A DNA stretch of 64,000 nucleotides, taken from assembly GCF_964204645.1 (NCBI RefSeq), contig NC_134025.1, positions 18,260,001 to 18,324,000 of the forward strand, written 5' to 3'. Position 1 is the first letter of the stretch. Every line of letters starts with the position of its first letter. A program made the translations under genes and the position numbers. This DNA is from Tubulanus polymorphus (Eukaryota > Nemertea > Palaeonemertea > Tubulaniformes > Tubulanidae). The notes under the pieces were generated by a model. The model had not been told where the DNA came from. It searched no databases and was given only the letters and a program-made list of their open reading frames with translations. Positions 13,281 to 35,491 of the stretch are shown in pieces.

Positions 13281-13289
13281 CACCTAATC

Positions 13290-16200
13290 TATACTAAAAA
13301 GCCGAGTCCTGAGTGATAGGCAAACACCAAGATTGACTGTAGTAAAATCACGTCATGATTACGTAGTGTCTTGATATAATTGATTTTATATGCCACTTAA
13401 ATGAATGCATAATTGGGGGACATGAATATTATAATAACTCTGTGACTAGGTAGTGTCCAGATATGAATAGTTTTATATGCCAATAAACTGAATGTAGATG
13501 TGTAGATACAATTAGTAAAATCACTTCATAATTAGGTAGTGTGTAATATGAATATTATAATAACTCTATGATTAGGTAGTGTCCAGATATGAATAGTTTT
13601 ATATGCCAATAAACTGAATGTAGATGTGTAGATACAATTAGTAAAATCACTTCATAATTAGGTAGTGTGTGATATGATGGGTTTTATATGCTATTTTACT
13701 GCATGTAGAATTGTAGGACATATATAAATAGTAAAATCACTTCATCATTAGGGAGTGTCCAGATATGGTGGGTTTTATATGCCACTTTACTGAATGTAGA
13801 ATTGCGGGACATAATGAATAGTAAAATAACGTCGCGATTATCTAGTGGGCTGATACGAAGGGTTTTTATACGCCACTTAAATGTATGTAAATTTGTAGGA
13901 CATATATGAATAGTAAAATCATTTCATGATTAGGCAGTGTCCTGATATGCTTTTGTATGCCACGCAGCGTAATGTAGAATTACAGGACATATATAAATAA
14001 TATTAGTTCTTAGGTAGAGGGTCAAGATAATTAAAAATCCATAGGAGCAAAAACCATACAAATCGCATTTTGTAATGAGTAATATATATTTATTGTAGCG
14101 AACGTTTTCCGGAGTAACATTATCCCCTCTTCAGGCATAGCGCGCAAGTGATTAAATGTTCATATCATACTGGTATTTATATAGAATAGGACGAAGCTAA
14201 TTACAAACAATTTCAATTAACTGAGTGACAAGATGATTACAATATAAAGATAATTAATTATACACAATCTAAATTACTGAGTGAATATATTTGACTAGTA
14301 GTTAATTATCTAAAAACGTATTATATGAAAATTTAATCACTTGCGCGCTATGCCTGAAGAGGGGATAATGTAACTCCCGAAAACGTTTACTATAATAAAT
14401 ATATATTACTCATTAGAAAATGAGATTTGTATTGTTTTTGCTCCTATGGATTTTTGATAAATAATATTACTGCATGATTGGGTAGTGTCCGGATTTTAAT
14501 GTTTTTATATGCCACTTACTTGAATGTAGAATTGCAGGGCATATTTAAATAGTGAAATAACGCCATGATTATCTAGTGTCCTGACACTAATGGTTTTATA
14601 CGCAACTTAAATGTATGTAGAATTGTAGGACATATACGAATAGTAAAATCACTTCATAATTAGAGAGTGTCCCAATAGGTATGAACGATTTTTTTCATAT
14701 GACATTTAACTGGATGTAGAATTGTAAGACATATATAAATAGTGAAATCACTTCACGATTAGGCAGTGTCCCGATATATGTGCCACTTAATTGGATGTAG
14801 AATTGCAGGACATAATCAAATAGTAAAATAATGGCATGATTATCCATTGTCCTAATATGAATGGTTTTATACGCCACTTAAAATGTATGTAGATTTGTAG
14901 GACATGTACGAATAGTAAAATCATTAGGCAGTGTCCTGATGCCGTAGGTTTTATATGCCACGCAACTGATCATGTACAATTGTAGGACCTACACAAATAG
15001 TAAAATCATTTCAGGATTCGGTAGTGTCCTGACATGAATAGTTTTAAATACCCCCTAAATGAATATAAATTTGATGATGAGTTCTATATGTTGCGAAACT
15101 GATTAAAGAATTGTAGGGCATACATAAATAGTAAAATCACTTCATAATTAGAGTGTCCCAATATAAAGGGTTTTATATTCCACTTAACTGAAGGTAGAAT
15201 TGTAGGACATATATAAATAGTAAAATCACTTCATCATTAGAGAGTGTCCCAATATAAAGGGTTTTATATTCCACTTAACTGAAGGTAGAATTGTAGGACA
15301 TATATAAATAGTAAAATCACTTCATCATTAGAGAGTGTCCCAATATAAAGGGCTTTATATGCCACTTAACTGAAGGTAGAATTGTAGGACATATATAAAT
15401 AGTAAAATCACTTCATCATTAGAGAGTGTCCCAATATAAAGGGTTTTATATTCCACTTAACTGAATGTAGAATTGTAGGACATATATAAATAGTAAAATC
15501 ACTTCATCATTAGAGAGTGTCCCAATATAAAGGGTTTTATATGCCACTTAACTGAATGTAGAATTGTAGGACATATATGAATAGTAAAATCACTTCATAA
15601 TTAGAGAGTGTCCCAATATAAAGGGTTTTATATTCCACTTAACTGAAGGTAGAATTGTAGGACATATATAAATAGTAAAATCACTTCATCATTAGAGAGT
15701 GTCCCAATATAAAGGGTTTTATATGCCACTTAACTGAAGGTAGAATTGTAGGACATATATAAATAGTAAAATCACTTCATAATTAGAGAGTGTCCATTGT
15801 CCTAATATGAATGGTTTTATACGCCACTTAAAATGTATGTAGATTTGTAGGAAATATACGAATAGTAAAATTATCAGGCAGTGTCCTGATGCCGTGGGTT
15901 TATATGCCACGCAACTGAATGTAGAATTGTAAGACATCCACAAATAGCGCCCTGATATGATAGTTTTATATGCCACCTAACTGAATATAAATTTGTACTG
16001 CACTTAGCTGATGCAGTATTGTAAGACATATATAAATAGTAAAATGCTTTATGATTACCGTAGGTAGTTTCTTACGAGTCGAGTTTTCTATGCTGCCTAA
16101 CTAATTATAGATTTGTAGGACATATAAAAATAGTAAAATCACTTCATCATTACGAAATGTGCCAATATGAAGGGTTTTATATGCCAGCGATATAGAATTG

Positions 16201-16345
16201 TATATATAGAATTGTAGGACATATGTAGTAATAGACATAAATAGTAAAATCATTTTATGATTAGGTAGTGTCCAGATATGATGGGTTTTATATGCCACAT
16301 AACTGAATGTAGAATTGTAGGACATGACTAGTACAATCAATGCAA
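13290..16345 (+). repeat. 91-bp satellite array
   Basis: Unit of 91 bp in its best-kept part (15130-15790): GAGAGTGTCCCAATATAAAG, GGTTTTATAT, CCACTTAACTGAA, GTAGAATTGTAGGACATATA, AATAGTAAAATCACTTCAT. For example consecutive units start at 15239 and 15330. The outer units are older and vary in length. Short open frames here come from the repeat. Reverse-oriented units occur at 25920-26400 and 32340-32600, inside introns of the recombinase gene. Confidence 0.88.
14029..14458. mobile_element. Foldback/MITE-like element inside the satellite
   Basis: Long inverted repeat: a perfect 37-bp arm pair at 14117-14153 and 14335-14371, with outer arms pairing AAAATCCATAGGAGCAAAAAC near 14034 with its reverse near 14430-14455. 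It is flanked by AATAATATTA-like copies on both sides (about 13997-14006 and 14460-14469), a plausible target-site duplication. Confidence 0.68.
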
Positions 16346-16449
16346 GATTAGATATTGCCCTGATGTAATTATGATCTTTCAAGAACCGGTGCGATTCGTG
16401 AAGTCTCTTTTCTCTGTCATAAATAAGTTTAAGAAGACTTTTTAACAAT

Positions 16450-17190
16450 CCTTCAATACAGTGTTTAAGATGGATACAAAAACGATGTCCGACTGCACAG
16501 TTCTGGCTTGAATGGCATTAGTTTGAAGTATTTGCTCACAAAAGTTACAAATTATCTCGAGAAAACTGATGAAACACAAAAGTGAACAGACTAGCAGTGT
16601 ATGCCTGACATATCTGCATGTCCGTTCCTAAATTCTAATTTTTTTTTGGTCTGACATCGATTTTTTGAGTTCCCTATAAACTAAACTTTTCAACACATAC
16701 CGGGTACCTCAATTAGGTCTTAATACGACCAGTGAAACTGTAAGTAAATCATCGTTTTATCCATTTTAAACTGTTTTGCATTGGAGGATTACTAAAAAAA
16801 AGTCTTCTTTAACTCATTTCAATTAGAGAAAATAGACCCCATTTAATGAACTACCGTTACGTAAATCAATTTTAACAATATTTTTCTATGCCTAGGCCCT
16901 TGCCATTTGAAAATGTTTGCAAATTATTCAAAGAAAATCATGGTTCGTAGGCACGGAAACACAAGAAACATCTTAGAATTTCAAAAAATGGCTGATCTTT
17001 TCTGTTTTCGACACGAGAAAATGAAAACCCTTTGGCAATAATTCAATACAGTCTAAAATGGCTATAAAACGAGGATTTATTCAGGCTGCACAGTTACCGT
17101 ACACTGGTCGTTAAGACCAATTTAGGGTATGTGTTCAAAAAGTTAAGCGAAATATCCCAAAAAGATCGATTTCACACGAAAATAAATTAG
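16450..17190. mobile_element. Diverged foldback element
   Basis: The block at about 16640-16785 (AACACATACC, TTAGGTCTTAATACGACCAG, CATCGTTTTATCCATTTTA) pairs with the reverse of about 17030-17150. A direct diverged copy of the right arm lies at about 16450-16515 (TTCAATACAGTG, ACTGCACAGTT). Arms are imperfect, so this is an old element. Confidence 0.45.
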
Positions 17191-18552
17191 CCTTATGCCC
17201 GCATCTAAAATTGATTAGTGACATAAAGTCGGTATTTAACGGTTTTGTTCGGTATTTAGGGCTACCGGTTAGTTCGTTGCTGCGTTGAAGGTAGTCTAGT
17301 ACCTAGCCGTCGTTCTAGGGAACCGGTAACAACGACCGGTATTCAGACTACGTTGAAGGTCGTTGCTGCGTTGTAAACAACCGGTGGACGTGCAATATTT
17401 TCATTACTACATTTACGCCCGTTTCATTAAAATTCTGGCTACAAAATTTCTTATATTGACATACATTGTACCGCATTTCTAATCAGGATTGCAGAAAACG
17501 CTAAATTCATTTACACACACATTCAACTATACTTATAGGCCTATAGTACACCAGCACTAGCACATTGGATGTGAGTAACCTGTCCTTGTTAGTATTTAGT
17601 AATCGGTTGGTGGTAAGCTATTATCTAATAAAATAAAGGCCTCCTCCCAGCTAATCCCTGATGGCCTGAATACCATCTGACCTAGTACTAGTCTGAACAG
17701 ACTGTAACAACTGCTGTTCAACAGTTGTTGTTACGGTTCCCTACCTACAACCTGTTTGGAAAACAACGGCTAGGTACTAGACTACATCTGACCTTACTAG
17801 TAGTATTAGGCCCTATCTCTAGTCTTGACCGAGTCATCTCAGATAGGCTTGTAATTTGTACTTTTACTGCTAACGTTGATAATATCCAGAACTTAGAGAG
17901 GCCCTAGAGTATATACAAATAGGCCTACAAATACCTACCGGTATAGGAATTGTCGTGGTTTGTAAAACAGTCCGATCATCATAGAAACCAAACCTGATGT
18001 GCTGACTGATATTCCGCGCTACAGGCTGATACTTTTACCACTGCACAGTAGGCTACAGCTAACCTGCTGAATCAGCCTAGATTATAATCCAAATACCGGT
18101 ACCAACCTGTCATTGTTACAGGTTCATTGTAGGACATGGACCGGCCTATAGCCATGCCTGCTTATTAATTAGTTTCACTTATTTAGGCCCCCTAGTAGTA
18201 GGCCTATAGTGATACAGAATTCTAGCATATTTAGGCCTTGAAGCTTGGAACTAAGCACCGGTGTTGCACAATGAATTTTTTCTTTATTGTATATTTTTGA
18301 CAGCCAATTTTTGTAATTTATATCAAGTGCTACTGCTATTGATATGATATGCAGTGACGTGGCCGTTGGTCTAAATGGTTTTTTTTTGCAAAAATCAATC
18401 GCTTAATTCTTTTTTATTTTTTTTATGTTTCAAGGTGAGGATTTGTGTTCTGCCCAATTTGCAGTATTAATATCTCGGTTAATAGGGCAAAGATACAAAT
18501 AAGCCTGCCCATTATCATAGCACCTTATTCTTGGTTGTATTTTTCAGGTGAG
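17191..18552. promoter_or_regulatory. 5' flank of the SET/OTU/recombinase gene
   Basis: No coding sequence recognised. Contains CCGGT-rich inverted segments (17260-17400 against 17690-17790; shared words TAGTCTAGTACCTAGCCGT and its reverse) and a near-palindrome at 17706-17736 (GTAACAACTGCTG..CAACAGTTGTTGTTAC). The promoter presumably lies here, but no TATA or initiator could be assigned. Confidence 0.3.
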
Positions 18553-18655
18553 ATGCCGAGACGCATGACACCAAGTCAGGTGGCTCTTGAATTTATTAAA
18601 TTTGGCAAAGATCCAGAAGAGGCATTCGAAAAAAAAGTTGTCAATAGCGAAATAG
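18553..18655 (+). CDS. First coding exon of the SET/OTU/recombinase gene
   Basis: Begins ATGCCGAGACGC and encodes 34 residues rich in basic and hydrophobic positions, including SQVALEFIKFGKDPEEAF. This resembles the short lead-in that precedes the SET domain in KMT5A-like proteins of fish and cnidarians as I recall them. It ends ATAG|GTAGGC in phase 1, exactly what the next exon at 20842 needs. The ATG sits 6 nt downstream of a TTTTTCAG acceptor-like site, so the exon may carry a short 5' UTR and an upstream non-coding exon may exist. The intron that follows (18656-20841) is filled by reverse-oriented composite repeats. Confidence 0.7.
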
Positions 18656-21600
18656 GTAGGCTAAATTATACCTAAATGGAATGTTTTAACCCTATCAAAC
18701 CCTAACCCTCCTGACCTTCTAGACCCCAACCCTATCCTAAACCTAATGAGGCCTATAGGCCGAGAAGTGTTTTTGATATATAATGAGGACAACATAATCT
18801 TTAGCCCACTTGGGACTTAAGTCCCAGTGGACTATTGCGTTCACTTTTCATCTGTCGTCCGTTTGTCCATAGACGGAATCAAGTTCTTTTGGGAAGTTTT
18901 GAAGTCGCTTCAATGGATTGTCTTGATCTTTAGTTTTTACATGTATCTAGATACATCTTCTGCCCGAAAACTGGCCTGATCAGAATCAAGATGGCCGACT
19001 GGTTGCCATTGTTGTTCAGAAAAATCAGCACTTTTTACATATTTTTGATGTTATTAAGGGAAATTTTGAAACCCTTTGATCAATTATCTTGATCATTCAC
19101 ATCTGTTTGTATCCCCGGTGCATCAGCATAAGAAAAATTGTGTAGATCAGACTTAACATGGCCATCATGTGACCTTTTTTATGCCCAAGGTCATTTTTGG
19201 CCTGAATTCCGAGATCTGGTTATACTATGAGAAGGGCTCTTACACAGGCCTATCAGACAGATACTTTGATCAGTCAAGCGTGATGCAATCAGTGACCATC
19301 TTCGTGTCATCAGTCCTCAGAAAAAGGTTTTTGAAGGAAACTATGGACAAGTTTTGACTTATAGTCTTGATATTTGATATAGGCCTATAGTATCGCTGTC
19401 ATAGTATTCATCTCCTCACGTGGAATTGGGGTTACCCGGGTTTTTGTTCTCACCACCAGGGAGAGTTGAATATAGAATTACATACAGAATTACAGAATTG
19501 GTACCTATTGATATTTTGTATGAGTTTCAAGGTCATTGGTATGGTAACCACAATGAATGGCAAAATTGTATCTTGTGACATATTCTATGATTATGGGGCC
19601 GATTCTTTTATGCAGTCCGTATTCTCCGGATTGAATATCCTGATTTGTGCATAATGGAATAGTTGTTGAGAATCAAAATGGCGGCTTCCGTAACTTTTCT
19701 GAGTTTTAGGAGGCAAAATTCATGCGTCGCCATTTTGTCACGTGGTCTCTCCGCAATCACACCGGTCGACAGATTGGAGAGAATGGACTCTCCGAACTCT
19801 CCAGAAATAGTCACCTGATCAATAAAAGAATGGAAATGGAGCGTCCGGATTATCCGTACTGCATAAAAGAATCGGCCCTAGGCCACCAGGGGCATTGAAG
19901 AGCTAAATAACTTTTATTATATTATATTAGTATTTTCATATTGTATTGGTCTTGGTCATATTGTATTTTGTAACCACAATCAATTACAAAATTGTAGCTC
20001 ATGACATGTTCCATCATTGATTGTGGTGAGTTGTAAGGTCATTGCTTTCTTAATATGTTCACCAGGGGGCGTTGAATATTCCGTTTGTTAAGCATTTCTA
20101 ACCAATTCCCAAGTGGGCGTGGTGTCCCTGGACCACTAGTTTACTAAATTACTGCTGCATCTGTATGATATCCACTTTTTTATAGAATATCTGTTGTGTC
20201 AGTCCGTAGACAGAATCCAGTTATTTTGGGAAGTTTAGAAAACACATGGATTGATGTTTGGTTTATACATATATTACCCTGAAACACCTACAGCCCAAAG
20301 ACTGGTCCTGTCAGAATCAAGATGGCAGATTTCTGTTTGCCGAAATCAGCATTTTTACAGATTTTGATGTTTTAAAGGGAAATCTTTTAAGACGCTTCAA
20401 TTATCTTGATCTTTCAAATAATATTTTTAATGCCCAGGGGCCCATCAGCATTAAAACAATTGAGTTGATCAGACACAAGAAGTCCGTCCTGTGACCTTTT
20501 TGGTGCCCATATAGCTCAAAAATCTCAGTCTGAAATCCTCAAAAACCTATATCGGTAGCTTCCTTGACTTAATAGCAGAAACTGAGTATTTCCATATCAT
20601 ACCTATTAATACATTGGCATATTTTGTTACCACAATACATAGTAAAGACATAAATAAACAATCAATGCAAAATTTATGTCATGGTTTCTGTAGTTCACCA
20701 GACGTTGAATATTAACATTTCCAGATGGTTGAGCATTTCAAACCTTTTCTCATCTGGGCATGGTGTCCCTGGACCCTAGGTTTTAATGTAGGACCTGAAG
20801 GAATGGTTTTTAATCAAAGATAATACTTTTTTCTGATTAAGGATATGGATTATTCACAAAGAAAGCAGTTTGTAGAGGGGATTTTTTGGTGGAATATCGT
20901 GGGCTACTCCGTGATGTGAAGGAAATCGGGGATGACGATACATATGTCTTTGAATTTCAAGACAAAAAGTTCAGTTCTCTGTGGTATGTAGGTCTATTGA
21001 TTTTCTAACCAGATATTGCCCATCAGGCTACTTAGTTTACACTTTAACTAAAATAAGTCATTCAAAGCCTAACTGTTACCTGTAGGCCTGTATCATAATT
21101 TGATACCACCCATCTTCTTAAAGTATATTAGGCCTAATTGAATACTCTAAATATGACTTTTACCATTTCAGCATTGATGCCTCAATTGATGATGGTAGTT
21201 TGGGACGGCTCATCAATGATGGGTGGGGTGGCAAAGAAAACTGTAAAGCCAAAACCGTCATATCTGAAGGAAGGCCCCATATTGCATTTTTTGCTATTAA
21301 GGACATACCCCCCAAAACAGAATTGCGGTATGATTACGGGGTGACTGATTATTGGTGGAGACAGGTAAATTATGATGATTTATTTTCATCCAATTTTGTT
21401 GCAGCGAAGCTCTCATTCAGTTAGAACCTTACCCTCCCCTTCACCATACATCCATACTTTTTGTATACGCTTTAGTGCCTTATAGTAACAACCTCTAATG
21501 CAAGCATTTGTGCATCAAAGAATTAGCCCTAAGTTCAAAGCTTGTAATTTTTATCAGAATGACGACTGAAGTTGTCAATTGAAAAAAAAGTATCGTGAAC

Positions 21601-24600
21601 ATAACCTCAATATCTCCAATTATCCTTGACAGCGGGTCCCGAGAAGAAAGCAGTTTATGATTCGTAACGCTTGTCTTTATTAATGAATTATCAGTAAATG
21701 ATTTATGCTGGTGTTGAAAAAATTAAACTTTGGTTATGAGTTACGATGGTCCAACATCAATGATCATACTACATGGAGTATGGTGCATACAGCAGTTTAT
21801 AAATGCAAACCCCCTCCCATACACAACCATAGACATTTTAATACAAATTTTCAAACCCCCTCACCCTTCTCTGTGTGTATGTACTGATCCTAAGAACATC
21901 GACTGATCAATTTCTTAATCACGATAAAAGTTCCTCTACAACTAATCATTGTACTATAGATACGCCGTGTAGTATCTTTGTTTCTACTGATGCATTTGGG
22001 TACCATATTGTATTTCTGTGCTGCATGAATGAGCTACATTTGCTTATTTGCTGATTTCTTCACTGCTTCCATTATGCCATTCTGGAAAATTATTTTTGTA
22101 TTCAACATATAAATAGGCTTCTAACAAAAAAGAACTTAATGCCTCAGGTAAGCTTGTTAACCTGTTGGGATTAAAATTTTCTAGATTGAGTCAAACTTGC
22201 AAAGTACACCCAGCATGCTGAAGCTTGCGATTGTCATTAGGCCTATGTAGATGGAATTTGGTTTAAGCATGGAGAATAAAAGCAAAATGAGTCTATCATA
22301 TTCAAATGTAAATTTCAGATTTGCCTTGCATTTCATGGCTTACATAAAAACTTGCTGTATACAGGCTACATTTGCACCATGAGATTTTCTTCATGTACTG
22401 TGTGTGATAACTGTGCATGAATCTGAATTGAGGGTGTCTATCAGGAATATGTGTTAATTCTGCGGTTAATAAATATCATTGGACTTTGAAGATAAGATAG
22501 GTTATGTTAGATGCAACTTGCTTCTTATAGGTATGCCCTATGATGGTAGATGATTCATTTTCATACACCAACGACCATAAACTATCATTACCCAATTTGT
22601 ATAAGTGAATGATACAGTATTGGCTTAGAAGCATTAGGTTGGAACACAACCAAGGGCGGGTAGTTGAATTATGCCTTTTATTATGCACATATAAATCCAG
22701 CTTGCATCCACCCCTCAGAAATGTTGCTCTTTTTCTCTATAAGATTTGTATGTCCATAAACTCAGTTTATACATTTACCGGTATACTTTGTTGAGCCGTC
22801 CACCAGAACAGCAGAAATAGACGAATTTGAATCATTTTGCATGTGATAGGCCTAACCTTATATATATTCTAACCTTATATATATTCTATATATATATATC
22901 TGTTGTATGCTTTTCAATTTTTATGGTTCCCTTTTGTTTCATTGAATTATCTCATAATGCATATTTTAGATAATGAGCAATGTTAAGCATGTATTCTTTG
23001 TGTAAAAAAACTTAGGTTCAGTCCTATTGGCCACCCACCATGATAAATGTTTTGTTTTAAGGTGAATACTATACAGTGTTATAATTTCCTGATGGTCTAA
23101 GTATGTATCGTTTGATAAAAATATATTTTTAACATCAATGAAATTGGTTATTATTTATGTTAGAAATAATCCATTCTCATGAAGTAAACATGATCTTTGA
23201 AATGCATGCAGGGGCGTATCAAGCGGGTGGTCTCGAAGGTCTAGACTCGTGCCTTCCCTTTGAAGTTGCCCTTCGTACAGAGATAACTTAAACCTATAAA
23301 TTTAACATCTCAGAAATTTCATCTTTAAGGGTTGATTTATTCAAAAGTGTATCTAACCCTAGATGGAGGGACCCCCCTTAACGAATTTGATATGGCTGCT
23401 TTAACCGAAAATGCCTCGTATTTACTTTTTGAACCCGCCTTGCAATTTTCCTATTTCTACCCTTGGCAGGTAATTTGATTTCTTTCCCTACAAATTGAAC
23501 GGTAGGATTGGAAAAAAGACAGTAACCAGGCATACATGTTTTGTCGATTTTTTACTTTCTCTTGACACACTCAAAATGAGGTTGATATAAAACCATGTAA
23601 TTTTCATGGATCACATTCAAGATGGTCTACTGGCAACATGTAAGCCTATATTTTGGGAAATTACCTACTCTAGGTATTGTATTAACACCCTGTAATTTCA
23701 TTTTCAAGATAATGTATTGACTTCCAAGTCTTTTCGTCAACACAAATCTGGTGAAAAAAAAAATCATGATTCTTGTTCTGGTAAGTAAACTCATGAAATA
23801 ACTTAAGCTTGTATAATGCAGTAATAATTGGCAGCAGATTGCTGTATCATTGTATCTGTCATTTGATTTTCTAGATAATGTATTGACGAGTAAATGTTCC
23901 AGTGATGATTCAAAACAAGTTTCTGAATTCACGTGTTCTGGTAAGTTTACTCATTATGTAAATTTTTAGCTTGTATAATGCAGTAATAGTGGTCAACAGG
24001 TTGCTGTATCATTGTATCCGTCATTTGATTTTCTAGATAATGTATTGACGAGTAAATGTTCCAGTGATGATTCAAAACAAGTTTCTGAATTCACGTGTTC
24101 TGGTAAGTTTACTCATTATGTAACTTTTTAGCTTGTATAATGCAGTAATAGTGGTCAACAGGTTGCTGTATCATTGTATCCGTCATTTGATTTTCTAGAT
24201 AATGTATTGACGAGTAAATGTTCCAGTGATGATTCAAAACAAGTTTCTGAATTCACGTGTTCTGGTAAGTTTACTCATTATGTAACTTTTTAGCTTGTAT
24301 AATGCAGTAATAGTGGTCAACAGGTTGCTGTATCATTGTATCCGTCATTTGATTTTCTAGATAATGTATTGACGAGTAAATGTTCCAGTGATGATTCAAA
24401 ACAAGTTTCTGAATTCACGTGTTCTGGTAAGTTTACTCATTATGTAACGTTTTAGCTTGTATAATGCAGTAATAGTGGTCAACAGGTTGCTGTATCATTG
24501 TATCCGTCATTTGATTTTCTAGATAATGTATTGACGAGTAAATGTTCCAGTGATGATTCAAAACAAGTTTCTGAATTCACGTGTTCTGGTAAGTTTACTC

Positions 24601-27600
24601 ATTATGTAACTTTTTAGCTTGTATAATGCAGTAATAGTGGTCAGCAGGTTGCTGTATCATTGTATCCGTCATTTGATTTTCTAGATAATGTATTGACGAG
24701 TAAATGTTCCAGTGATGATTCAAAACAAGTTTCTGAATTCACGTGTTCTGGTAAGTTTACTCATTATGTAACTTTTTAGCTTGTATAATGCAGTAATAGT
24801 GGTCAGCAGGTTGCTGTATCATTGTATCCGTCATTTGATTTTCTAGATAATGTATTGACGAGTAAATGTTCCAGTGATGATTCAAAACAAGTTTCTGAAT
24901 TCACGTGTTCTGGTAAGTTTACTCATTATGTAACGTTTTAGCTTGAATAATGCAGTAAAAGTGGTCAACAGGTTGCTGTATCATTGTATCCGTCATTAGA
25001 TTTTCTAGATAATGAATTGACGAGTAAATGTTCCAGTGATGATTCAAAACAAGTTTCTGAATTCACGTGTTCTGGTAAGTTTACTCATTATGTAACTTTT
25101 TAGCTTGTATAATGCAGTAATAGTGGTCAACAGGTTGCTGTATCATTGTATCCGTCATTTGATTTTCTAGATAATGTATTGACGAGTAAATGTTCCAGTG
25201 ATGATTCAAAACAAGTTTCTGAATTCACGTGTTCTGGTAAGTTTACTCATTATGTAACTTTTTAGCTTGTATAATGCAGTAATAGTGGTCAGCAGGTTGC
25301 TGTATCATTGTATCCGTCATTTGATTTTCTAGATAATGTATTGACGAGTAAATGTTCCAGTGATGATTCAAAACAAGTTTCTGAATTCACGTGTTCTGGT
25401 AAGTTTACTCATTATGTAACGTTTTAGCTTGAATAATGCAGTAAAAGTGGTCATCAGGTTGCTGTATCATTGTATCCGTCATTAGATTTTCTAGATAATG
25501 AATTGACGAGTAAATGTTCCAGTGATGATTCAAAACAAGTTTCTGAATTCACGTGTTCTGGTAAGTTTACTCATTATGTAACTTTTTAGCTTGTATAATG
25601 CAGTAATAGTGGTCAACAGGTTGCTGTATCATTGTATCCGTCATTTGATTTTCTAGATAATGTATTGACGAGTAAATGTTCCAGTGATGATTCAAAACAA
25701 GTTTCTGAATTCACGTGTTCTGGTAAGTTTACTCATTATGTAACTTTTTAGCTTGTATAATGCAGTAATAGTGGTCAACAGGTTGCTGTATCATTGTATC
25801 TGTCATTTTATTTTACAGATATTTCATTGATTCGTGAGTGTTCTGGTGAAAAGAAAATTTCTGAATTCACAGTTTCTGGTAAATAAACTCTATTTCTCTA
25901 TTCATATGTGTTAAAAGTTCTATATTTAGTAAAGGGGCATATAAAACCTATCCTACCTTAATGAGAAAAGATTCACCATATGTCCTACAATTCTCCATTT
26001 ACTTAAGTGGCATATAAAACCATTCACATCAGGACACTATCTAATCATTAAATAATTTTACTATTTATGTATGTCCTACAATTCTGTACTTGGTTAAGTA
26101 GTATATATAACCCATCATATCTGGTCACTACCTAATTGTGAAGTGATTTTACTGTCTATATATGTCCTACAATTCTACATTCAGTTAGGTGGCATATAAA
26201 ACCCTTCATATTGGGACACTCTCTAATGATGAAGTGATTTTACTATTCATATATGTCCTACAATTCTACATTCAGTTAGGTGGCATATAAAACCCACAAT
26301 ATCTGGATACTGCCTAATGATGAAGTGATTTTACTACCTATGCATATCTTACAATTCTACATTCAGCATATAAATCCCATATCAGGACACTATCCCAAAC
26401 CCAATATCCTTTTCAAACAAGTTGAAATAGACCTTTCCTGTTCATGAAGAATTTGAACAATTTTATGCATCACAATTCTATGTTACATTATAATCTAATA
26501 CATTATATCACCATTGCATGCTTTACTTATGTTATGTTGCAATAATTGTCAGGTTGCTGTATCATTATATCTGTCATTTGATTTTCAAGATAATGTATTG
26601 ATGTGATGATATAAAGAAAGTTTCTGAATTTACCTGCTCTGGTAAATTAACGTATTGCATAATTCTTTAACTTGTAACATGCAGCAATAATTGTCACCAT
26701 ATCATTTATTTTTCAAGATGATGCATTGACATGTGGCCCTTCTGGTGATGTTGACAATGATTCTGAATCCACCTGTTCTGGTAAGATAACACTTGTTTGC
26801 ATAAGCAGTTATAGTTGTTCACAATTTAATAGCTGTATCGATGATATCTACCGTATTTATGCAGTTACTGATAGTTACATAGCTTTATTATTCACAAGAT
26901 GCACATTTCCAATAATCAGCTATTTGAATGATTGAACATCAATGAGCTGCCAATATAGTTATCTTTGGAATTTGTTTTATTCCCAAAATTGGACTAGCTA
27001 ACACTACTTACCCACTGATAATTGAAATATATATTTTCTTCAAATAGTTTTTGAGATGTTTTGGCTTTTCTCTACTTTTAGAATTTTCAGATGGCGAGGA
27101 ATTACTTGAATCTTCGATATCTCAAGCTATAATAAGTACGTTACATTTGAAGTGTACTATACCTTTAAACCTGGTTTTTGTTCATCCTAAACATTCATAT
27201 TTTGTGAGTGTAAGGAAAACGATCGACTTGCAAGATAATGCCTTGCGAGAAGAAAGTCAAAATGCAATCGGTCTTCAGAGAGTGAAATCATGTAAAAGTG
27301 GTTTCCCTTCTTTTGTGGGTGGGGATTAGAGCACATTGTACGAACTTTTGTCTTTCAAGGAGCACATACTTTGTGGACAAGACATGTCCTAAAATGCATC
27401 AAAAACTGTGATATAAAAATAAATTGCAATCCATATTACTTTACACTCCCTATTTCATAAAAAATATCCTTCGGTCGTTGAAAGTGTTGAGCATAGCTTG
27501 TGTCATTAACACGTAGATACTAAGGGGGAGGGTCAATGCCGAAAAATTATGCCAGTATGGATAATTGAAATAATTGAAACTAATCTATTTAGGTTTTCTG

Positions 27601-30600
27601 CCACATGACTATGATAGCGATGAAGAATTACCATTTTTTTATGAAAACAAGGAGGGAACCTGCGGTAAGTGAACGTTATGATCTTATCTACCTTAAAAAG
27701 GTGCATATTAACTGAAAAATCTTACACATTAACTGAAAAATCTTGTTCTAAAGTTGTATTAGGCATATTGCGTTCTAGTGTCAATTGTCCATCCATAGGT
27801 AGAATCAAAGCATTTTAGGAAGCTTTGGAGATATTTTAAAGGATTGTCTTAATACATGTATCTAGTACTTTTGAGACAACTGCAGCTCAAAAACTGGTCT
27901 TATCAGATTCAAGATATGTGACCAACAGCATTTGTTCAACAAAAGTTTTCATGGAGAACTTGTTTGATGTTTGGTATATATAATATATGTATCTCTGCCC
28001 AGAGCCTATTACTACTGGAAAAATTGGATCAATCAGAGGAAAATGGCGTAGTCTCTGTAGTAGTCTCTGTAATCTGTAGTCTCAATTTCTAGATCTTTAG
28101 ATATGTTTGGATCAGGCAAATTTTGAGTCATCTTAGTCTCACCAGTCCTCGCTCATGGTTGGAATGGTTTTTTTTTTAAGGAGGGTACCAACAATTTTAA
28201 CTTGTTATTTATGTTGTTGTTATTTATGTTGAATTTGTTTTGTTGAATAGAAATTATCCGATATTGTTCTCCCCACTAGGATTAATTTGAACATTGAAAT
28301 TTACTTTGGAAATTTGAAATTTACTTTGGAACCATTCAGTTTTGTACCTATTATCTATTGCAAAGTGAAAAAGCACATGAAATTTTCTGTCATTTCATTG
28401 ATTTTCATGGAAAATAGTTTGTGTATTCGCACCAGCAGGAATTGAACATTGAAGTATTGTTAGACAGAGGTTAGAGTGATAAAAACTTGTAGTCCAATGA
28501 TGCCTTCAAAAATAACATGAAATAACGCAAAGATGTTATCAATGTATGTGAATATTAATTCAACAGTTTCTACGAGGTCAAAAAGTCAAAAATTCAGTTC
28601 AGTAGGATATTTGTTTTTTAGATATTGGATTTAGATACAACTTTGACAAGATTTTTATTGAGAAGCCGGAAAATTGACTTTTGATTGTATTGAATTGGGT
28701 ACATGTAAAATGGCTAGGTCTACCAGATTTGATTTAAATTCATAAGAATAGATCTGCAACACCAAACATGTTAAATTTTGGTGGTAGTTTCCTAGGTATT
28801 CATTAACACTTGATAGATGTCTTTTATTTTATCTTCAGCTACTACCACTATTGATTACTCAAACATTCTGAAGATGCTCACTCTGAGTGCACAGAAAAGC
28901 TATGAGAATCTGAAAACTACTGTTGGCTATTTTGCAAGTAGGATACGGGAACTTGAGTATAAGTGTTTGGACAGAAAACTGATGGTACATGGCAGGTCAT
29001 TAGAAATTATGCAGAAATGTGGTGATATGGTAAATGGGGTGCTCATGCCTGCAGATGTATCTGGTGATGGTAACTGTTTGTTCAATGCAGTATCAGTCGG
29101 TCTTTGTGGGTGTGAAGATCTAGCAACTGAACTTCGTGTTCGCACTTGTATCGAAATGGTTGAGAATTCTGACTTCTATCAAACTCGAAGTATCGAATTT
29201 GGATTCGATTTGATTTCACCATCCTTCGCAGATGCATGTATTGCTTGTGCAATACACAACAGTTATTCTTCGATGCTGACAATACAGGCACTCGCAACAG
29301 TTATTGATAGGAGGATAAGATCAGTATACCCCTCGGTTAATGGGTTATTGGATAATCGTGTGCCTATAATGAACCATATATTAAATCCAAGAAAAAATTT
29401 GACTGGCACATTGAGGCAAGCACCTTTACTCGTAATGTGGACTACACATTCAGAACTTAAACCTGGACACTGGAATCCGGATCATTTTGCCCCTTTACTG
29501 CCAAAAGATGTATTTGAACCGAAAGCTGGAACCTCTTCACAACAGGATGCAATTATAAAGAAAAAAAGGCAAATTGACTCATCTGACTCTGAAGATCAGT
29601 CAATTGATGTTGACATTCCAAAAAAGCGGAAAAAAAGAAAATGTATATCAGATTCTGAAGATGATTACATTCCTGATGACGATCTATGTGATAGTGATGA
29701 TGATAATCTCCATGAAATTGATCCAAATGATAACGATATTGAGGAAGAAGACTTTGGAGATTATCTGTCAAGACTGTCGGCTCATTTGAAACATGTTACT
29801 GTTCCGACATACCAGTCAGTAGATGGCAAGCGGGACTACCGAAAGGCAGATTATTGTTTGTATTGTAAGCGTGTGTTTACTTCGAAAATATCCTCGCATT
29901 TGTGCAGTATTCACGCGTCTGAACCAGAAATTATAAAGTACCATCTGATACGCGATCCAAATGAAAAAAAAAAACATATGCGCTTACTTCAGAATGAAGG
30001 AAACTTTCGGCACAATTGTAAAGTGATAAAAGAAGGACATGGTACGTTGGTCGTTGTCCGTAGACCCAATAAAACGGATAAACCACCAAATGCAGTGGAC
30101 TACGTACCATGCGAATTTTGTAAGGGTTTTTTCTACAAGGGATGCCTTTCCGAGCATGCGACACGTTGCCACTTCAAACCAATGGCAAAACAACCAGACA
30201 TCAATTACATAAGAACCTCTCGAAACATGCTATCACCATTTGTACCAAGAATCGATGAGGATACGGTTGCATTAAACTTGATATTCAGCAGAATGCGAGA
30301 AACAGTTGCAAACCCTGGCATTCCTGGCATTTGCGAAAAAGACGAATTAATTGGTGAATTTGCTTTGTCATTGTACTCGCGTTTAGGCACTGCAAAGGAG
30401 CAGCGCCGAAAAGACCTAGCAAACTTGAGAACAAAGGTCCGTTTACTCGGTATGCTACTGAAAGCCCTGAACGAGAACAATGGCGAAGAAAACTGGATAT
30501 CGCTTTCCTCGTACCTGAGAGGGCCACATTTCCATCAGATAGTCAAATGTGTTAAGAAGTTAGCTTTGGAAAAAGATTCCCCGAGTGTGGCAATAAATTT

Positions 30601-33600
30601 GGGGATTTACATCAAACATTGCATTGTCCTCAAAATGAGCATGGGGATTTTTGAAGGAGACAAAATTATGCAAGAAGAGGGAAGAGATTTCGAAGTAGTT
30701 TATCGGGCCCATTGGAACAATACTGTTTCGTGTGTTGCTAATCGAAGGATTAAACTTAGGAAACTCAATCAAGGCAATACACATCCAGTGGCAGATGACT
30801 TAGTAGTCTTTAAAGATTGGCTCGACTCTGAAATTGATAAAGCGTTGATGATACATGAGCCTACTTCAAAACAGTGGAAACATCTTGCTTATGCTGTTCT
30901 TGTCCGTATAGTCCTTTTCAACCGAAGGCGGATATCAGAAGTGGAAGAAATGATCATGAGCGATTTCGAAAATATTGTGCCGGATGCCGATCAGAATCAA
31001 GAGATCCTGCAATCACTGTCTCTAGCTGAGCAGCTTTTGGTCAAACGGTAATTGTTGTTTTAAAATTGTCTTAGTCATATGCTCTTATCTAATTTACAAG
31101 ATATGTTGGGTTGATTTTGGAGAGTTTTTTGTAGAATGCGTGTAATAGAAATCCGAGGGAAGAGCACTCGCAGTATTCGAGGTGTATACATTCTGCTTAC
31201 TGAGAAGATGGTTAAAGCTATCGAACATATCCTCGATACCAGACAAAGTACAAGTGACTTCATTTTTGCTAGGTAACATCAATTCTGAAATCAATTAGAC
31301 TTGTGGCATTCTATTTAGCATGTATAAAAGACGTGTATAAAAGACGTGTATATAGCGTGTATAATAAGAACATTCAACAACGTATATCTGTTGACATTGA
31401 CAATTTGGATAGATTTTACTTCTATCCATCTTCAGCGATTTAGAAGAGTTTTTATATAACTCTGAAGATGGATAGAAGTCTATCTGAAATGTCAGTGTAA
31501 AGTTTCACAGATAAAGCTATGTGGGTCTTTCTAGGAAGAATGCTATTTTCTGATTTATACAGTGTTTGCACTTTCCTATTCAAATAACATTAACCCATTA
31601 ACAATTGCAATACGGATTTTGAATGTTTCTTGAATGGATTCGATTAATGCAAGGTTTATTTTATTATTATTAAGGTACAATCATTCCCTTTTTGAATGTC
31701 AATTGATTAATAGTCCTGATAAAAATCTTAATCTCTCATCACAACTGATATAGTTTTGTTCGTGGGCATCTACATGCTGAATAATCAAATAAGTTAGTGC
31801 TTACCAGGCCATGCAGCCATTTTTTAGAAAAATGTCTTTGTATACAGTATATACTTTTTTTAGTTCATATCGTGACAGGTTTTGTGCAAGCATTGCAAAT
31901 CCATCATTCATTTTAGGAAACGTGCTGACACACCACTTGACGGTTGTACTGCAACGCGTGAAATGACAAAATTGTGTCCCGGACTGAATGCACCTGAACG
32001 AATTAGATCGACGAAGCTCCGATCTTTCTTTGCAACTACACTACAAGTAGGTTTATCATTTACCAATGAACTAGGATTAGTCTTATTGCAAGCATTACAA
32101 ACCTCTTTAAAATACAAACCACAGTATTACAATTATAAATGTTGTATATTTATATTACCTGATTAATAACCTGACAATTTAAGACTACATGTATATGGGG
32201 GATTTTTTTCTGTCTTCCTGATATCAGGTGTTATCTATATTCAAAGGAATCATTAGGTTAATTACTTACTGAAATTTAGAGGGCATGTGACCGTTAAGGT
32301 CATGTAATCATCTAGACAGTACTTGATCATGAAAGGATTTTCCCATTATATATATATCCTACAATTCTACATGCAGTAAAATAGCATATTAAACCCATCA
32401 TATCAGAACACTACCTATTTATGAAGTGTCTATTTATGTATGTCCCACAATTCTACATCCAGTTAAGTGACATATAAAACCCATCATATCAAGACACTAC
32501 CTGACCATGAAGTGATTTTTCCTATTTATGTATGTCCCACAATTCTACATTCAGTTAACCAGTATATAAAACCTATCATAAAAGGATGACAAGTGATAAT
32601 AGACAAGTGCTGATATCGGATCCTGTATAGGCCTAAAACATCCGTATCAGGACATACCTTATCATGAAGTGCTTTTACATGTACTATCATACAAGCCTAA
32701 TTTCCAGCCCTGTATGTATTAGTGAATGAAATTTTTAAGAATATAAAATAGAACCTTCATTCATCAAGAATATCTATAAAGAAGGTAAAGCTCTGGTCTT
32801 CGAAAGACATAACAAGCAATGATTATAATAAATCAATGATCGGCTATAATGATACTTGTGAATGGAAATTATATTGTGAAGTGATTTGAAATGGATGAAA
32901 GCCCTAAAGCCAGTATTTGGGTTTATAACTTCAGATTTTGTCTATGAAGCCCAACGAGTTGAAGATGGTGGCTGATCATATGGGGCACGATGTGAAAATT
33001 CACGCAGATGTATATTGCCTCCAATCTTCACTCGTTGAAAAAGCGAAGGTAGCGAAGGTGCTATTGGCTGCCGAAAATGGCATTATGGCAAGATTCAAAG
33101 GAAAGTCATTGGAGGATATTGATCCCGATGGTAAGTCTGACTTTACTGATAGATTAAATATTTTAGTATTCTCTGCTATGACAGCAGTCACCCGTGTGTG
33201 TGTATGTGTACATGTGCATTTATTCATTGATAACGTTTTAGCACTCCCATTATCCTTGGATTATGCCGATAAGTGGACTGAGTGTGAAGACAGTGAAAAC
33301 AGTGATGACAGTGATGACAATGACATGGTCGATGCAGAAGTTCCGCCAAAGATGGAAACTAACCAATCTGAAGCGCAAAGTAAGTTCATGGATAGGGTCC
33401 ATAGTGATTAAACCACCTTATGGACGGTATAACAATCCTAGGGGAAATGGGGCCTATTGTGAGAACCTATCAGTAGTCTTGATGCAATGGTTTGTGTAGC
33501 ATTTTTATATGATTTTGTTTCAGATGAGAAGTCACGTATTAAGAGGGCACCCTGGACAAAGGGAGAAACAGATATTTTTTGTAAGATATTGCATAACTAT

Positions 33601-33732
33601 TTGAATAATAAGCGAATGGCACCAGCAGTAGACTTGAGAAAAGTAGTTGAAGAACTTGGTGGTAGCCGAACTTTGCCTCAGGTTCGAACGAGGCTACATA
33701 ATATTATCTCGAAGAAGCAGAAAACGAAATAA
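18553..33732 (+). CDS. SET - exon-array spacer - OTU - zinc finger - tyrosine recombinase - SANT fusion gene (spliced)
   Basis: A multi-exon plus-strand gene assembled by matching splice phases. Exons seen: 18553-18655 (start MPRRMTPSQVALEFIKFG), 20842-20983, 21172-21364, probably 22117-22147, 23709-23780, twelve 66-nt exons from 23875 to 25722, 25819-25878, 26718-26780, 27091-27135, 27593-27664, 28839-31047, 31135-31272, 31917-32046, 32935-33130, 33242-33379, 33524-33732. The sum is 4593 nt, or 1531 codons with the stop. Domain order is SET, Cys/Ser/Asp-rich repeat spacer, OTU, NLS and two fingers, tyrosine recombinase, SANT. Such a protein could cut and rejoin DNA and bind chromatin; whether it is a mobile-element enzyme or a domesticated gene is not shown. 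It is nested in a ZC4H2 intron, opposite strand. An AATAAA lies at 34277-34282. Weakest link: the join between the SET exons and the array, which relies on one inferred 31-nt exon. Confidence 0.75.
18801..20140 (-). mobile_element. Composite repeat, reverse orientation, first intron of the SET gene
   Basis: Begins TTAGCCCACTTGGGACTTAA and ends CCAAGTGGGCGTGGTGTCC then CTGGACCACTAGT, the reverse of the 4083-6275 element, with the tail first and the minisatellite head last. It contains about one 150-bp head unit. A further partial reverse copy occupies 20160-20783 and stops 58 bp before the SET exon at 20842. Confidence 0.6.
20842..21364 (+). CDS. SET-domain exons (KMT5A/PR-Set7-like methyltransferase fold)
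   Basis: Two exons, 20842-20983 and 21172-21364, phases 1-2 and 2-0. The first reads GYGLFTKKAVCRGDFLVEYR, the opening of a SET domain (G-x-G-L/V-F, then GDFxxEYxG). The second carries CIDAS, GRLIND, a later NC pair, and ELRYDYG, the family's C-terminal signature. Known SET enzymes methylate lysine with S-adenosylmethionine; the nearest relative by motif is KMT5A (H4K20). The usual NHS of the active-site pseudoknot is here IND followed by a longer loop, as in KMT5A-like copies I recall from fish, so activity is uncertain. No post-SET cysteines are visible, as in KMT5A. Splice sites are GATTAAG/GTATGT and CATTTCAG/GTAAAT. Confidence 0.82.
22117..22147 (+). CDS. Candidate 31-nt linker exon between SET and the exon array
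   Basis: The SET exons end in phase 0 and the array needs phase 1, so at least one asymmetric exon must lie in 21365-23708. This stretch is bounded by AAATAG and CAG|GTAAGC, is 31 nt (phase 0 to 1) and encodes ASNKKELNAS, ending in the same Ser plus split Gly/Asp codon as every array exon. The acceptor has a weak pyrimidine tract. A 31-nt alternative starts at 21632 (after CCTTGACAG, donor C|GTAACG) but has a weaker donor. Transcript data would settle it. Confidence 0.35.
22855..22905. repeat. TA-rich microsatellite
   Basis: Two copies of AACCTTATATATATTCT followed by a (TA) run, in the intron between the SET exons and the module array. Confidence 0.7.
23709..23780 (+). CDS. Diverged first module exon of the spacer
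   Basis: A 72-nt phase 1-1 exon (TTTTCAAG acceptor, CTG|GTAAGT donor) encoding 24 residues that start DNVLTSK like the array modules but then diverge (SFRQHKSGEKKNH) and end DSCS. It has one Cys instead of two. It begins 166 bp before the first perfect array exon and is separated from it by a 94-nt intron whose sequence is recognisably the array intron. It is probably the founder or an older member of the family. Confidence 0.62.
23875..25722 (+). repeat. Tandem array of twelve 162-bp units, each with a 66-nt phase 1-1 exon
   Basis: Exons start at 23875, 24037, 24199, 24361, 24523, 24685, 24847, 25009, 25171, 25333, 25495 and 25657, exactly 162 bp apart. Each unit has a 96-nt intron ending TTTTCTAG and a 66-nt exon ending CACGTGTTCTG before GTAAGT. 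Read in phase 1, each exon gives a 22-residue module beginning DNVLTSKCSSDD and ending QVSEFTCS, with Cys at positions 8 and 21. Two copies (25009, 25495) change Val3 to Glu; the others look identical. Because every exon is symmetric, any number can be included or skipped without a frameshift. Introns are as similar as exons, so the expansion is recent or homogenised. If all were spliced in, the spacer would gain 264 residues. Confidence 0.9.
25819..25878 (+). CDS. Diverged module exon after the array
   Basis: A 60-nt phase 1-1 exon (TTTTACAG acceptor, CTG|GTAAAT donor) encoding 20 residues beginning DISLIREC and ending ISEFTVS. It is homologous to the array module but two residues shorter, with the second Cys replaced by Val. 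It sits exactly one 162-bp period after the last perfect exon, so it marks the downstream edge of the tandem expansion. Confidence 0.65.
25900..26400 (-). repeat. Reverse-oriented 91-bp satellite units in an intron
   Basis: About five units of the reverse complement of the 13.3-16.3 kb satellite (TGTCCTACAATTCTACATTC, GTGATTTTACTATTCATATA, GGGACACTCTCTAATGATG). They lie between the module exons 25819-25878 and 26718-26780. Confidence 0.8.
26590..26641 (+). pseudogene. Dead module exon
   Basis: Homologous to the array exon (starts ATAATGTATTGA after TTTTCAAG, ends CTGCTCTG before GTAAAT) but 52 nt long, 14 nt shorter than the standard module, and with TGA in the phase-1 frame. Including it would break the protein, so it must be skipped in a functional transcript. 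Its splice sites still look usable. Confidence 0.6.
26718..26780 (+). CDS. Third diverged module exon
   Basis: A 63-nt phase 1-1 exon (TTTTTCAAG acceptor, CTG|GTAAGA donor) encoding 21 residues: DDALTCGPSGDVDND then SESTCS. Both cysteines are kept, at slightly shifted positions. It shows that the module family existed before the homogenised array and is tolerant of length in steps of whole codons. Confidence 0.62.
27091..27664 (+). CDS. Two short acidic exons linking the spacer to the OTU exon
   Basis: Exon 27091-27135 (45 nt, GAATTTTCAG acceptor, A|GTACGT donor) encodes DGEELLESSISQAII. Exon 27593-27664 (72 nt, CTATTTAG acceptor, G|GTAAGT donor) encodes FLPHDYDSDEELPFFYENK and a GTC tail. 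Both are phase 1-1, so they keep the frame from the module exons into the big exon at 28839, which starts in phase 1. They are acidic and probably disordered. No domain is recognised. Confidence 0.6.
27770..28140 (-). mobile_element. Partial reverse composite/MITE repeat in an intron
   Basis: Diverged copy with AGCATTTTAGGAAGCTTTGGAG, AGATTCAAGATATGTGACC and similar remnants of the MITE body, between exons 27593-27664 and 28839. Ends are not preserved. The rest of this intron (27665-28838) shows nothing else. Confidence 0.4.
28839..31047 (+). CDS. Main exon: OTU-like domain, NLS, two zinc fingers, start of tyrosine recombinase
   Basis: A 2209-nt exon; the open frame runs 28817-31051 (744 codons, numbering below from its first Met). 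OTU-like cysteine-protease fold: DGNCLFNAVS at 84-93 (candidate catalytic Asp and Cys87) and HWNPDHFAPL at 218-227 (candidate His223), about 140 residues as usual for OTU deubiquitinases. A Lys/Arg cluster at 269-275 suggests nuclear import, followed by an acidic stretch to about 312. Two C2H2-like fingers: CLYC..H361..H366 and CEFC..H447..H452. Residues about 470-690 are helical and match the SAM-like/core-binding half of a recombinase, ending in FNRRRISEVEEM at 701-712, which supplies the first catalytic Arg (R-I-S-E). It starts in phase 1 after TATCTTCAG and ends in phase 2 at AAACG|GTAATT. Confidence 0.85.
31135..31272 (+). CDS. Tyrosine recombinase exon with the beta-hairpin region
   Basis: A 138-nt exon, phase 2 in and 2 out (TTTTTTGTAG / GCTAG|GTAACA). 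It reads RVIEIRGKSTRSIRGVYILL followed by TEKMVKAIEHIL, the strand-turn-strand that follows Arg I in tyrosine recombinases; the Lys of RGK is in the right place for the catalytic Lys. The intron after it (31273-31916) contains a perfect 18-bp inverted repeat at 31418-31435/31462-31479. Confidence 0.72.
31392..31494. repeat. Hairpin-forming inverted repeat in an intron
   Basis: Perfect 18-bp arms ACTTCTATCCATCTTCAG (31418-31435) and its reverse complement (31462-31479), extended imperfectly to TGACA/TGTCA at the outer ends. It sits in the recombinase intron 31273-31916. Confidence 0.75.
31917..32046 (+). CDS. Tyrosine recombinase exon with the HxxR-box arginine
   Basis: A 130-nt exon (CATTTTAG acceptor, CAA|GTAGGT donor), phase 2 to 0. 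Its end reads ERIRSTKLRSFFATTLQ, the equivalent of the H-x-x-R box followed by a helix with the A-T pair. Arg is present, but the His of HxxR is Thr (T-K-L-R). I recall the same substitution pattern (TKLR or TRMR) in uncharacterised invertebrate and fish proteins of this type, so it may be a family trait rather than decay. Confidence 0.74.
32335..32600 (-). repeat. Reverse-oriented 91-bp satellite units in a recombinase intron
   Basis: About three units (TCCTACAATTCTACATGCAG; GTCCCACAATTCTACATCCA; GACATATAAAACCCATCAT). Same orientation as the 25.9-26.4 kb block, opposite to the main array. Confidence 0.75.
32935..33130 (+). CDS. Tyrosine recombinase exon with catalytic His and Tyr
   Basis: A 196-nt exon (AACTTCAG acceptor, GATG|GTAAGT donor), phase 0 to 1. 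It carries ELKMVADHMGHDVKIHADVY: the GH box (H of box III) followed at the usual spacing by the candidate nucleophile Tyr. Then comes a helical tail (VEKAKVAKVLLAAENG). Together with Arg I in the 28839 exon and the TKLR exon this makes a full R-K-R-H-Y set, although box II lacks its His. The intron upstream contains reverse-oriented copies of the 91-bp satellite. Confidence 0.8.
33242..33732 (+). CDS. C-terminal acidic linker and Myb/SANT-like domain
   Basis: Two exons, 33242-33379 (phase 1-1, Ser/Asp/Glu-rich: ECEDSENSDDSDDNDMVD) and 33524-33732 (phase 1 to stop TAA at 33730-33732). The last one reads RAPWTKGETDIFCKIL, a middle helix with VVEELGGSRTLPQVRTRLHN, and a basic tail KKQKTK. The W-x-x-x-E opening and three predicted helices fit a Myb/SANT-type DNA- or histone-binding domain; a third-helix Trp is absent. 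Splice sites: CGTTTTAG, AAA|GTAAGT, TTGTTTCAG. This placement, behind a recombinase catalytic core, suggests target or end recognition. Confidence 0.72.
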
Positions 33733-34276
33733 TATAGGGAACCTCTAAATGTATGGCGTAAATATACTGTCAAAATTAAAATAGCATTTTTGACGCGTCA
33801 ATCGATGCGTCAAATTCACTTTATTTATGTTTTGTAATAATTACGTTATTGTTTAGCTGTAGCAAGAACGTACATATAGAACATAGTATTGATTGTTTTG
33901 CCATGCGAGTGAGTTTTGGAGAAAGTTGGACATGCATATATAATGCACCAAGATAGCGATCGTAAATCCGAGAAAAATACATTTTTTCGCTCAAAACTAA
34001 AATTTACTCATTTGGTCGTACTGGACCCATGGTCCTAATTAAAGATATGTGAAACTTTGTTTTTGCCACTAAGCACTGTGCCCAATGTAAATAATATCTA
34101 TATATTGATATTCCGTATGTGGAGTTTTCTTTCAATGATTGCTTGTTTTTGTTCTGATCGATTTCTCCTTTTATTAAAGCGCAATGATTACTGTTTAGAA
34201 GAAAATGTTTAAACAAAATCAAATATATTACCGGTATATAAATTGTTAAAGCAGTAAATGAAAAATGACCGATCTG

Positions 34277-34282
34277 AATAAA
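34277..34282 (+). terminator. Possible polyadenylation signal of the recombinase gene
   Basis: AATAAA 545 bp after the stop codon at 33732, on the coding strand. Another AATAAA is at 34857-34862. Which is used cannot be told from sequence. Confidence 0.3.
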
Positions 34283-35246: not shown

Positions 35247-35419
35247 AATTCATGGGGCATATAGGCCTATATAAATTGTGAGGTTTGCATATCATTAGCA
35301 TATAATTATACATATATGCCCCAGAAACGTATATAATTCATGGGGCATATAGGCCTATATAAATTGTGAGGTTTGCATATCATTAGCATATAATTATACA
35401 TATATGCCCCAGAAACGGG
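35247..35419. repeat. Two tandem 88-bp copies, each a hairpin
   Basis: Copies start at 35247 and 35335 and look identical over their shared length. Within each, TGGGGCATATA near the start is the exact inverse of TATATGCCCCA near the end, so each unit can fold. This could be a small foldback element duplicated once. Confidence 0.75.
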
Positions 35420-35491
35420 TATTAAAATAGCACCACACAATTGGGTTTGAGCCCACAAACCCCGTTAATAGTATGTTTTCAGTATATATAT

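Follow-up and report, generated by a model that had tools for sequence, protein, structure and literature searches.

A tandem array of phase-symmetric exons in the linker of a predicted SET-OTU-recombinase gene on a mobile element of Tubulanus polymorphus

Giant cargo-carrying elements of fungi, the Starships, encode a tyrosine recombinase (YR) known as the DUF3435 captain, and host genes with tandemly duplicated exons illustrate how phase symmetry permits frame-neutral changes in length. According to PMC3212892, Cryptons are DNA elements with a eukaryotic YR that occur in animals, including mollusc and fish, and the animal ones have neither a C-terminal domain nor terminal repeats. Endogenous nimaviruses of sesarmid crabs insert into (AT/TA)n microsatellites (PMC10871703). 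Here we analyze a 64,000-nucleotide stretch of the genome of the palaeonemertean worm Tubulanus polymorphus (contig NC_134025.1, positions 18,260,001 to 18,324,000 of the forward strand; hereafter the window, whose own numbering is used throughout), which holds an array of twelve tandem 66-nt exons. We favor, at a probability of roughly 80%, the reading that this array codes for the linker in a transposase-like gene of a recently active 23.8-kb tyrosine-recombinase element, where it would serve as a frame-neutral spacer.

The worm element resembles Cryptons (CryptonA) in being a DNA element of an animal with a eukaryotic YR, but it differs from them in its size of 23.8 kb, its KMT5A-like SET and OTU domains, its C-terminal tail, its imperfect inverted ends, and the absence of a Pfam DUF3504 match; Cryptons go unmentioned in PMC6431247, as judged by a term search. 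Starships share with it the large size and the YR but are fungal and carry DUF3435, which is not among the Pfam matches of the NCBI model of the worm protein (P0001), the SET exons, or 19 family members. The crab nimaviruses likewise lie in (AT/TA)n, but PMC10871703 describes them as large viruses with a Ginger2-like DDE transposase. Unlike tandem-exon host genes, the worm gene sits on a mobile element, and its array varies in size between copies in one genome. Fish proteins that combine SET and YR (labeled "uncharacterized" at NCBI, e.g., LOC121682254 in Alosa and LOC127367551 in Dicentrarchus) share with the worm gene the SET domain, tandem modules, a zinc-finger-like region, the YR, and, in most, the C-terminal tail, a likeness seen at the protein level. 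They differ from it in having a YR of about 30% identity, no OTU match in the members scanned, and modules of 24 to 46 residues with other sequences. SET-YR elements are not described in any of the titles and abstract beginnings listed, up to a cap, by full-text searches of the open PMC literature, a search outside which subscription papers, preprints, and Repbase lie.

The exon array and its predicted gene

Tandem Repeats Finder detected a period of 162 (12.7 copies, 97% matches) over positions 23774-25821. Within this stretch lie the twelve exons, on the plus strand (23875..25722; first exon 23875-23940, last exon 25657-25722), each 162-bp unit consisting of a 66-nt exon and a 96-nt intron, with exons and introns alike nearly identical between units. 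All 12 units have a TAG acceptor, a GTAAGT donor, an open frame, and phase 1-1 boundaries, and both splice sites, the frame, and the phase are intact in 63 of 63 units when the five copies of the element in the genome are taken together. The tandem exon array is confirmed as an earlier note on this DNA had described it, with exactly matching positions, self-contained exons, and near-identity of the introns as well as the exons. The translated unit, DNVLTSKCSSDDSKQVSEFTCS, contains two cysteines, and 4 of its 22 residues are acidic (D/E). Diverged relatives of the array exon, also in phase 1-1 on the plus strand, are found at 23709..23780 (72 nt), 25819..25878 (60 nt), and 26718..26780 (63 nt), the latter two being included in P0001, and a decayed pseudo-exon with a stop, judged by eye, lies at about 26590-26640.

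The array falls within a predicted gene of 27 exons and 26 GT-AG introns, all on the plus strand, whose exons join into one frame of 1,533 residues with a single terminal stop (1,269 residues without the array). Its product would carry, in this order, a KMT5A-like SET domain, a serine/acidic linker that includes the array, an OTU domain, a zinc-finger-like region, and the YR. Exon 1 (18553..18655), which is present in five copies, provides the start codon and the N terminus of the SET protein; exon 2 (20842..20983) encodes part of the SET domain, as judged by Pfam and KMT5A structures, and exon 3 (21172..21364; Pfam and predicted chain) encodes its end (..YDYGVTDYWWRQ) and has a phase 0 donor. 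A scan of the 2.3-kb gap yielded a single candidate whose donor scores 8 or more of 9, a putative 31-nt linking microexon (ASNKKELNAS; 22117..22147), which would lead from phase 0 to phase 1. Two acidic linker exons in phase 1-1, both included in P0001 (EFSDGEELLE.., 27082..27135; FLPHDYDSDEE.., 27593..27664), precede the main exon (28839..31047), which by Pfam and alignment encodes the OTU domain, an acidic stretch, zinc-finger-like Cys/His motifs recognized by eye, and the start of the YR with its first catalytic Arg. The YR residues Lys, Arg, His, and Tyr and then a Myb-like tail, seen by eye, are encoded by the last exons (31135-31272, 31917-32046, 32935-33130, 33242-33379, and 33524-33732), which were placed by alignment and the predicted chain.

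Spliced together, the SET exons encode 146 residues that match Pfam SET at E=4e-14 and whose best solved relatives are KMT5A/SETD8 (the first 14 structure matches), and they lie upstream in the element on the same strand as the OTU-YR part. P0001, a model of 1,179 residues with OTU and phage-integrase domains (Pfam), is 100% identical over the main exon and joins three array units, then flanking exons, and then the OTU-YR part. We infer from the gene model that SET and YR are encoded on one transcript in the worm, and the array linker between them is probably disordered. Since all introns of the predicted gene from the end of the microexon (22147) to the start of the OTU exon (28839) are in phase 1, the frame is preserved whichever of these exons are included; the earlier note had claimed as much for the array exons, and the property extends to the flanking small exons, which could be skipped as well.

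With respect to the recombinase itself, R871, K919, H1017, and Y1026 do not vary across an alignment of 19 proteins (placement by eye) and R991 hardly does, and the C-terminal tail is common to most of the aligned members. The His position (988) of the Crypton tetrad R-H-R-Y is occupied by Thr or Arg, as placed by eye in the sequence alignment. P0001 matches PF00589 at E=1.1e-6 (29 bits, cut-off 27.1), which indicates a YR related to phage integrases, and in NCBIfam it matches archaeal XerA below the cut-off; the SET region of the fish protein P0030 matches an effector family, also below the cut-off, which we take only as SET similarity. In Pfam, where the scan of the element covered P0001 and the SET exons, DUF3504 is absent among the 8 families of the 19 members (E<=0.01) and the 3 of P0001 (E<=1), a comparison of sequence profiles in which the family may go by another name in the Pfam copy used. 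Three proteins had no match in PHROG at E<=0.01, and of the 13 matches that two patterns gave in IMG/VR contigs, none encodes a relative; these searches, which did not extend to capsid genes, speak against a viral origin. A sigma-70 promoter scan was set aside as being of no use for an animal gene.

Dispersed copies of a mobile element

A search of the worm's own genome with one array unit (268 Mb, 77 contigs; counts are lower bounds) found four further arrays on other contigs and hence five dispersed copies in all, which rules out an ordinary host gene with a single-locus array. Comparison of about 50 kb around each copy with the window delimits a mobile element of about 23.8 kb on the plus strand (11673..35485), which is bounded by (AT)n at 11600-11674 and (TA)n at 35483-35541 and has imperfect inverted ends of about 34 nt, whose score of 34 was reached by 0 of 2000 shuffles. 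Outside the element span, the only matches of at least 400 bp above 88% belong to a dispersed 154-bp repeat. TA repeats adjoin both ends in all five copies (the one at the left of the copy on contig C2 is short), with unrelated DNA beyond, and a segmental duplication is rejected for the 50-kb stretches compared because the flanks differ while the same ends lie in TA runs in every copy. Each of the other copies is separated from the window copy by 20 or 21 substitutions per about 18.6 kb, or about 1.1 per kb, a count from which the array, the 13.4-16.0 kb repeat block, and matches under 98.5% are excluded. Judged by this sequence similarity, the element appears to have been active recently; the OTU-YR frame of the copy on contig C12 is interrupted. 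Genome searches with the left and the right end segment gave five occurrences of either one, and short nonautonomous derivatives were not seen in these searches, which score the best candidates only.

The copies contain 12, 16, 12, 11, and 12 units at an exact 162-bp spacing, so that repeat number varies by whole units, as the earlier note had anticipated, and the presence of 11 to 16 units at independent loci shows that the array did not arise from faulty assembly at a single site. The 63 units fall into ten types, whose order is identical in three of the five copies; units have been added in the copy with 16 and are missing from the copy with 11, indicating that the arrays travel together with the element and are subsequently altered in steps of whole units. 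The earlier proposal of a very recent expansion can accordingly be kept only in part: the units are indeed nearly identical, but the shared order of types means that much of the array was carried along with the element.

Gain and loss of whole units between copies is also what would be seen if the array were a minisatellite that caught an exon, grew by slippage or unequal exchange, and was tolerated in a disordered linker, with a length that has no function. Such neutrality would be in line with the unit diversity of the window copy, which is 0.5% in exons versus 2.3% in introns, a difference of 1 versus 6 variable sites (last unit excluded) that does not reach significance (Fisher p=0.24) and cannot be taken as proof of selection. 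It fits less well with the preservation of splice sites and frame in 63 of 63 units, although the units are young, and the linkers of relatives, discussed below, bear on it from both sides.

A different kind of repeat points to possible binding sites elsewhere in the element. This 91-bp repeat was seen only within the element, with 28 matches on the minus strand at 13340..16325 and 9 on the plus strand at 25904-26392 and 32352-32580; among the matches listed (of 172 genome-wide), all lie inside the five copies. Its opposite orientations towards the two ends suggest putative binding arrays for the recombinase or the zinc-finger-like region. Tandem repeats commonly act as transposase binding sites, and by the same token the exon array might work as DNA or RNA, for example, as recombinase binding sites, its coding appearance being incidental. 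We regard this as highly improbable, given that the array lies in the middle of the element, inside a gene, and in one orientation, that the 91-bp repeat is the better candidate, and that the linker of relatives is repetitive at the protein level with unrelated sequences.

In the window outside the element, the stretch 42583-43506 is related to the YR exon (36% identity) but degenerate, with five stops, so that the neighborhood holds the remains of another family. Remains of a LINE-like reverse transcriptase (plus strand, 48787-51207) and of a pogo-like transposase (minus strand, 56876-58080) were recognized by eye. The 154-bp tandem repeat is located at 4152-4643 and 59023-59558 and also near the element copies on contigs C6 and C7.

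Linker repeats in relatives

Relatives in the same genome repeat the linker in other ways. Our sample consists of four families, the main element among them, chosen by matches to the YR, OTU, or SET exons, and many further relatives lie outside it. In a divergent SET-OTU-YR relative at C2:9606-9614 kb, the SET and OTU exons are separated by three tandem exons of 153 nt in phase 1-1, of which the middle one lacks a GT donor; this locus sits about 3 kb from the main-element copy that ends at 9603.7 kb. The linker of the relative at C6:16607 kb contains an in-exon repeat of 60 nt, and the linkers of two copies of another family contain Asp runs of about 39 and 17.

Among proteins of other animals, a search with the YR part found 129, and many of the fish proteins among the best 120 of these 129 have SET and YR in one chain, while a search with the SET exons of the element found 13 proteins, all from two fish. 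A near-perfect tandem repeat follows directly after SET in Carassius, Gymnodraco, and Epinephelus (32 residues), Betta (26), Xyrichtys (46), and Oryzias latipes (24, in a protein without the YR core). For a count we called a region repetitive when 28 or more of its residues are covered by 7-residue words that recur, and considered the 44 named taxa with a core, excluding 19 unnamed proteins, the nine OTU-search matches P0003-P0011, and the core-less protein. By this definition, repeats occur in the N-terminal linker of 20 of the 44 taxa, in the C-terminal linker of 8, in either linker of 27, and in the core of 2. Fourteen taxa, all of them fish, have both SET and YR, and the N-terminal linker is repetitive in 12 of them, Oryzias melastigma and Prochilodus being the others. 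Repeats located after the YR core were observed in Misgurnus, Paramisgurnus, Cirrhinus, Labeo, and Patiria, although in some Misgurnus proteins they precede the core.

In a tree of 33 YR cores with a midpoint root, the worm groups with four molluscs (100/100, with the bootstrap not settled), and all four have N-terminal linker repeats, those of Dreissena (18 residues) and Elysia (16 residues) falling below the count threshold. The same tree places the cyprinids Carassius and Pimephales among percomorph fish on short branches (fork support 91/94), which differs from the species tree and amounts to no more than a hint of horizontal transfer. Over 800 residues, four shad loci show either no difference or a single one, and such near-identity would agree with a recent spread there as well.

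The modules themselves bear further on the idea that array length is without function. Repeat type and sequence vary widely by lineage, as that idea would have it, and the worm module is unlike all 14 other modules compared (best z of 2.9, with 5 of 200 shuffles equally good); we found no convincing homology to fish or mollusc modules in this comparison. In the opposite direction, the linker between SET and YR is repetitive in most of the SET+YR taxa whereas the core rarely is, and 7 of the 9 fish N-terminal linker modules compared resemble that of at least one other genus while being homogeneous within each protein, as expected of an array that is maintained over a long time. Neutral growth remains a serious contender, to which we nevertheless give somewhat less than even odds. 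As to the cysteines of the worm module, for which the earlier note had raised the question of metal binding or disulfide formation, the 14 other modules have zero to three cysteines; because the cysteines are not kept, such binding appears unlikely as the core function of the modules.

Isoforms listed for fish genes raise the possibility that variable inclusion of the array exons yields recombinases with different spacers, or switches between SET-only, OTU-YR, and full-length products. One sea bass gene has 10 listed isoforms (834 to 1011 residues) and two shad genes have 6 and 4 that differ only in linker modules, and the frame-neutral phases between 22147 and 28839 of the worm gene would permit the same. 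These isoforms are NCBI models, however, possibly over-called in repeats, and the strong and identical donors and acceptors of all the worm units would suit constitutive splicing as well. That the array is primarily a splicing device therefore seems doubtful to us, while some choice of exons may possibly take place in the worm.

Interpretation and meaning for the family

Taken as the linker-coding part of a transposase-like gene, the array would encode repeated 22-residue modules that form the spacer, serine/acidic and probably disordered, by which SET is separated from the remainder of the protein. Because the exons from the microexon to the OTU exon would all join in phase 1, gain or loss of units by unequal exchange, or their skipping in splicing, would leave the protein intact; tandem growth would thus be harmless through phase-symmetric exons and frequent through unequal exchange. 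The linker is often repetitive by other means in relatives, whether from the worm genome itself, from molluscs, or from fish, namely, through other tandem exons, in-exon repeats, or runs of Asp codons. It looks as though this family tolerates or favors tandem growth of the linker, whereas repeats in the catalytic core are rare, and the length of the spacer may affect activity.

Several observations weigh against this interpretation, in addition to the nonsignificant difference between exons and introns of the array. The join through the microexon is only predicted, the pyrimidine tract of its acceptor being weak (8 of 17), and a scan for a corresponding microexon in the relative on C2, at a lower threshold, yielded only three overlapping weak candidates. 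P0001 does not include SET, and its first 24 residues are unplaced, apparently with read-through of an array intron, so that its first exons may be an artifact of the model. The Pfam integrase family was matched at E<=0.01 by only 2 of the 19 members. No linker repeat was found by our definition in 17 of the 44 taxa, to which gene models without an N terminus would contribute, nor in 2 of the 14 SET+YR taxa, and in a third shad gene the 14 isoforms that are listed vary at the C terminus too. The modeled nature of the fish isoforms counts here as well.

A SET-YR family, as we propose it here, would be characterized by a KMT5A-like SET domain upstream of a zinc-finger-like/YR core and by repeats between SET and YR. 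The worm gene has this order of domains, with their joining on one transcript being predicted only, and its array supplies the repeats, which on the protein side are seen in 12 of the 14 SET+YR taxa, all fish. One could go further and envisage an unnamed and widespread class of animal YR elements in which a histone-methyltransferase-like domain is tethered via a phase-symmetric tandem-exon spacer, an evolvable length dial whose units are changed between copies and chosen in splicing, so that a ladder of tethers alters where or how the element integrates. As a whole we consider this larger picture rather unlikely.

Our findings connect a striking array of exons with an element that was mobile recently, and they point to a trait common to distant relatives, in which the linker on the side of the recombinase repeatedly becomes repetitive and the core seldom does. 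The five near-identical copies with 11, 12, or 16 units form a natural series in which linker length may be related to transposition or splicing. An element whose recombinase carries a KMT5A-like methyltransferase could write chromatin at its landing site.

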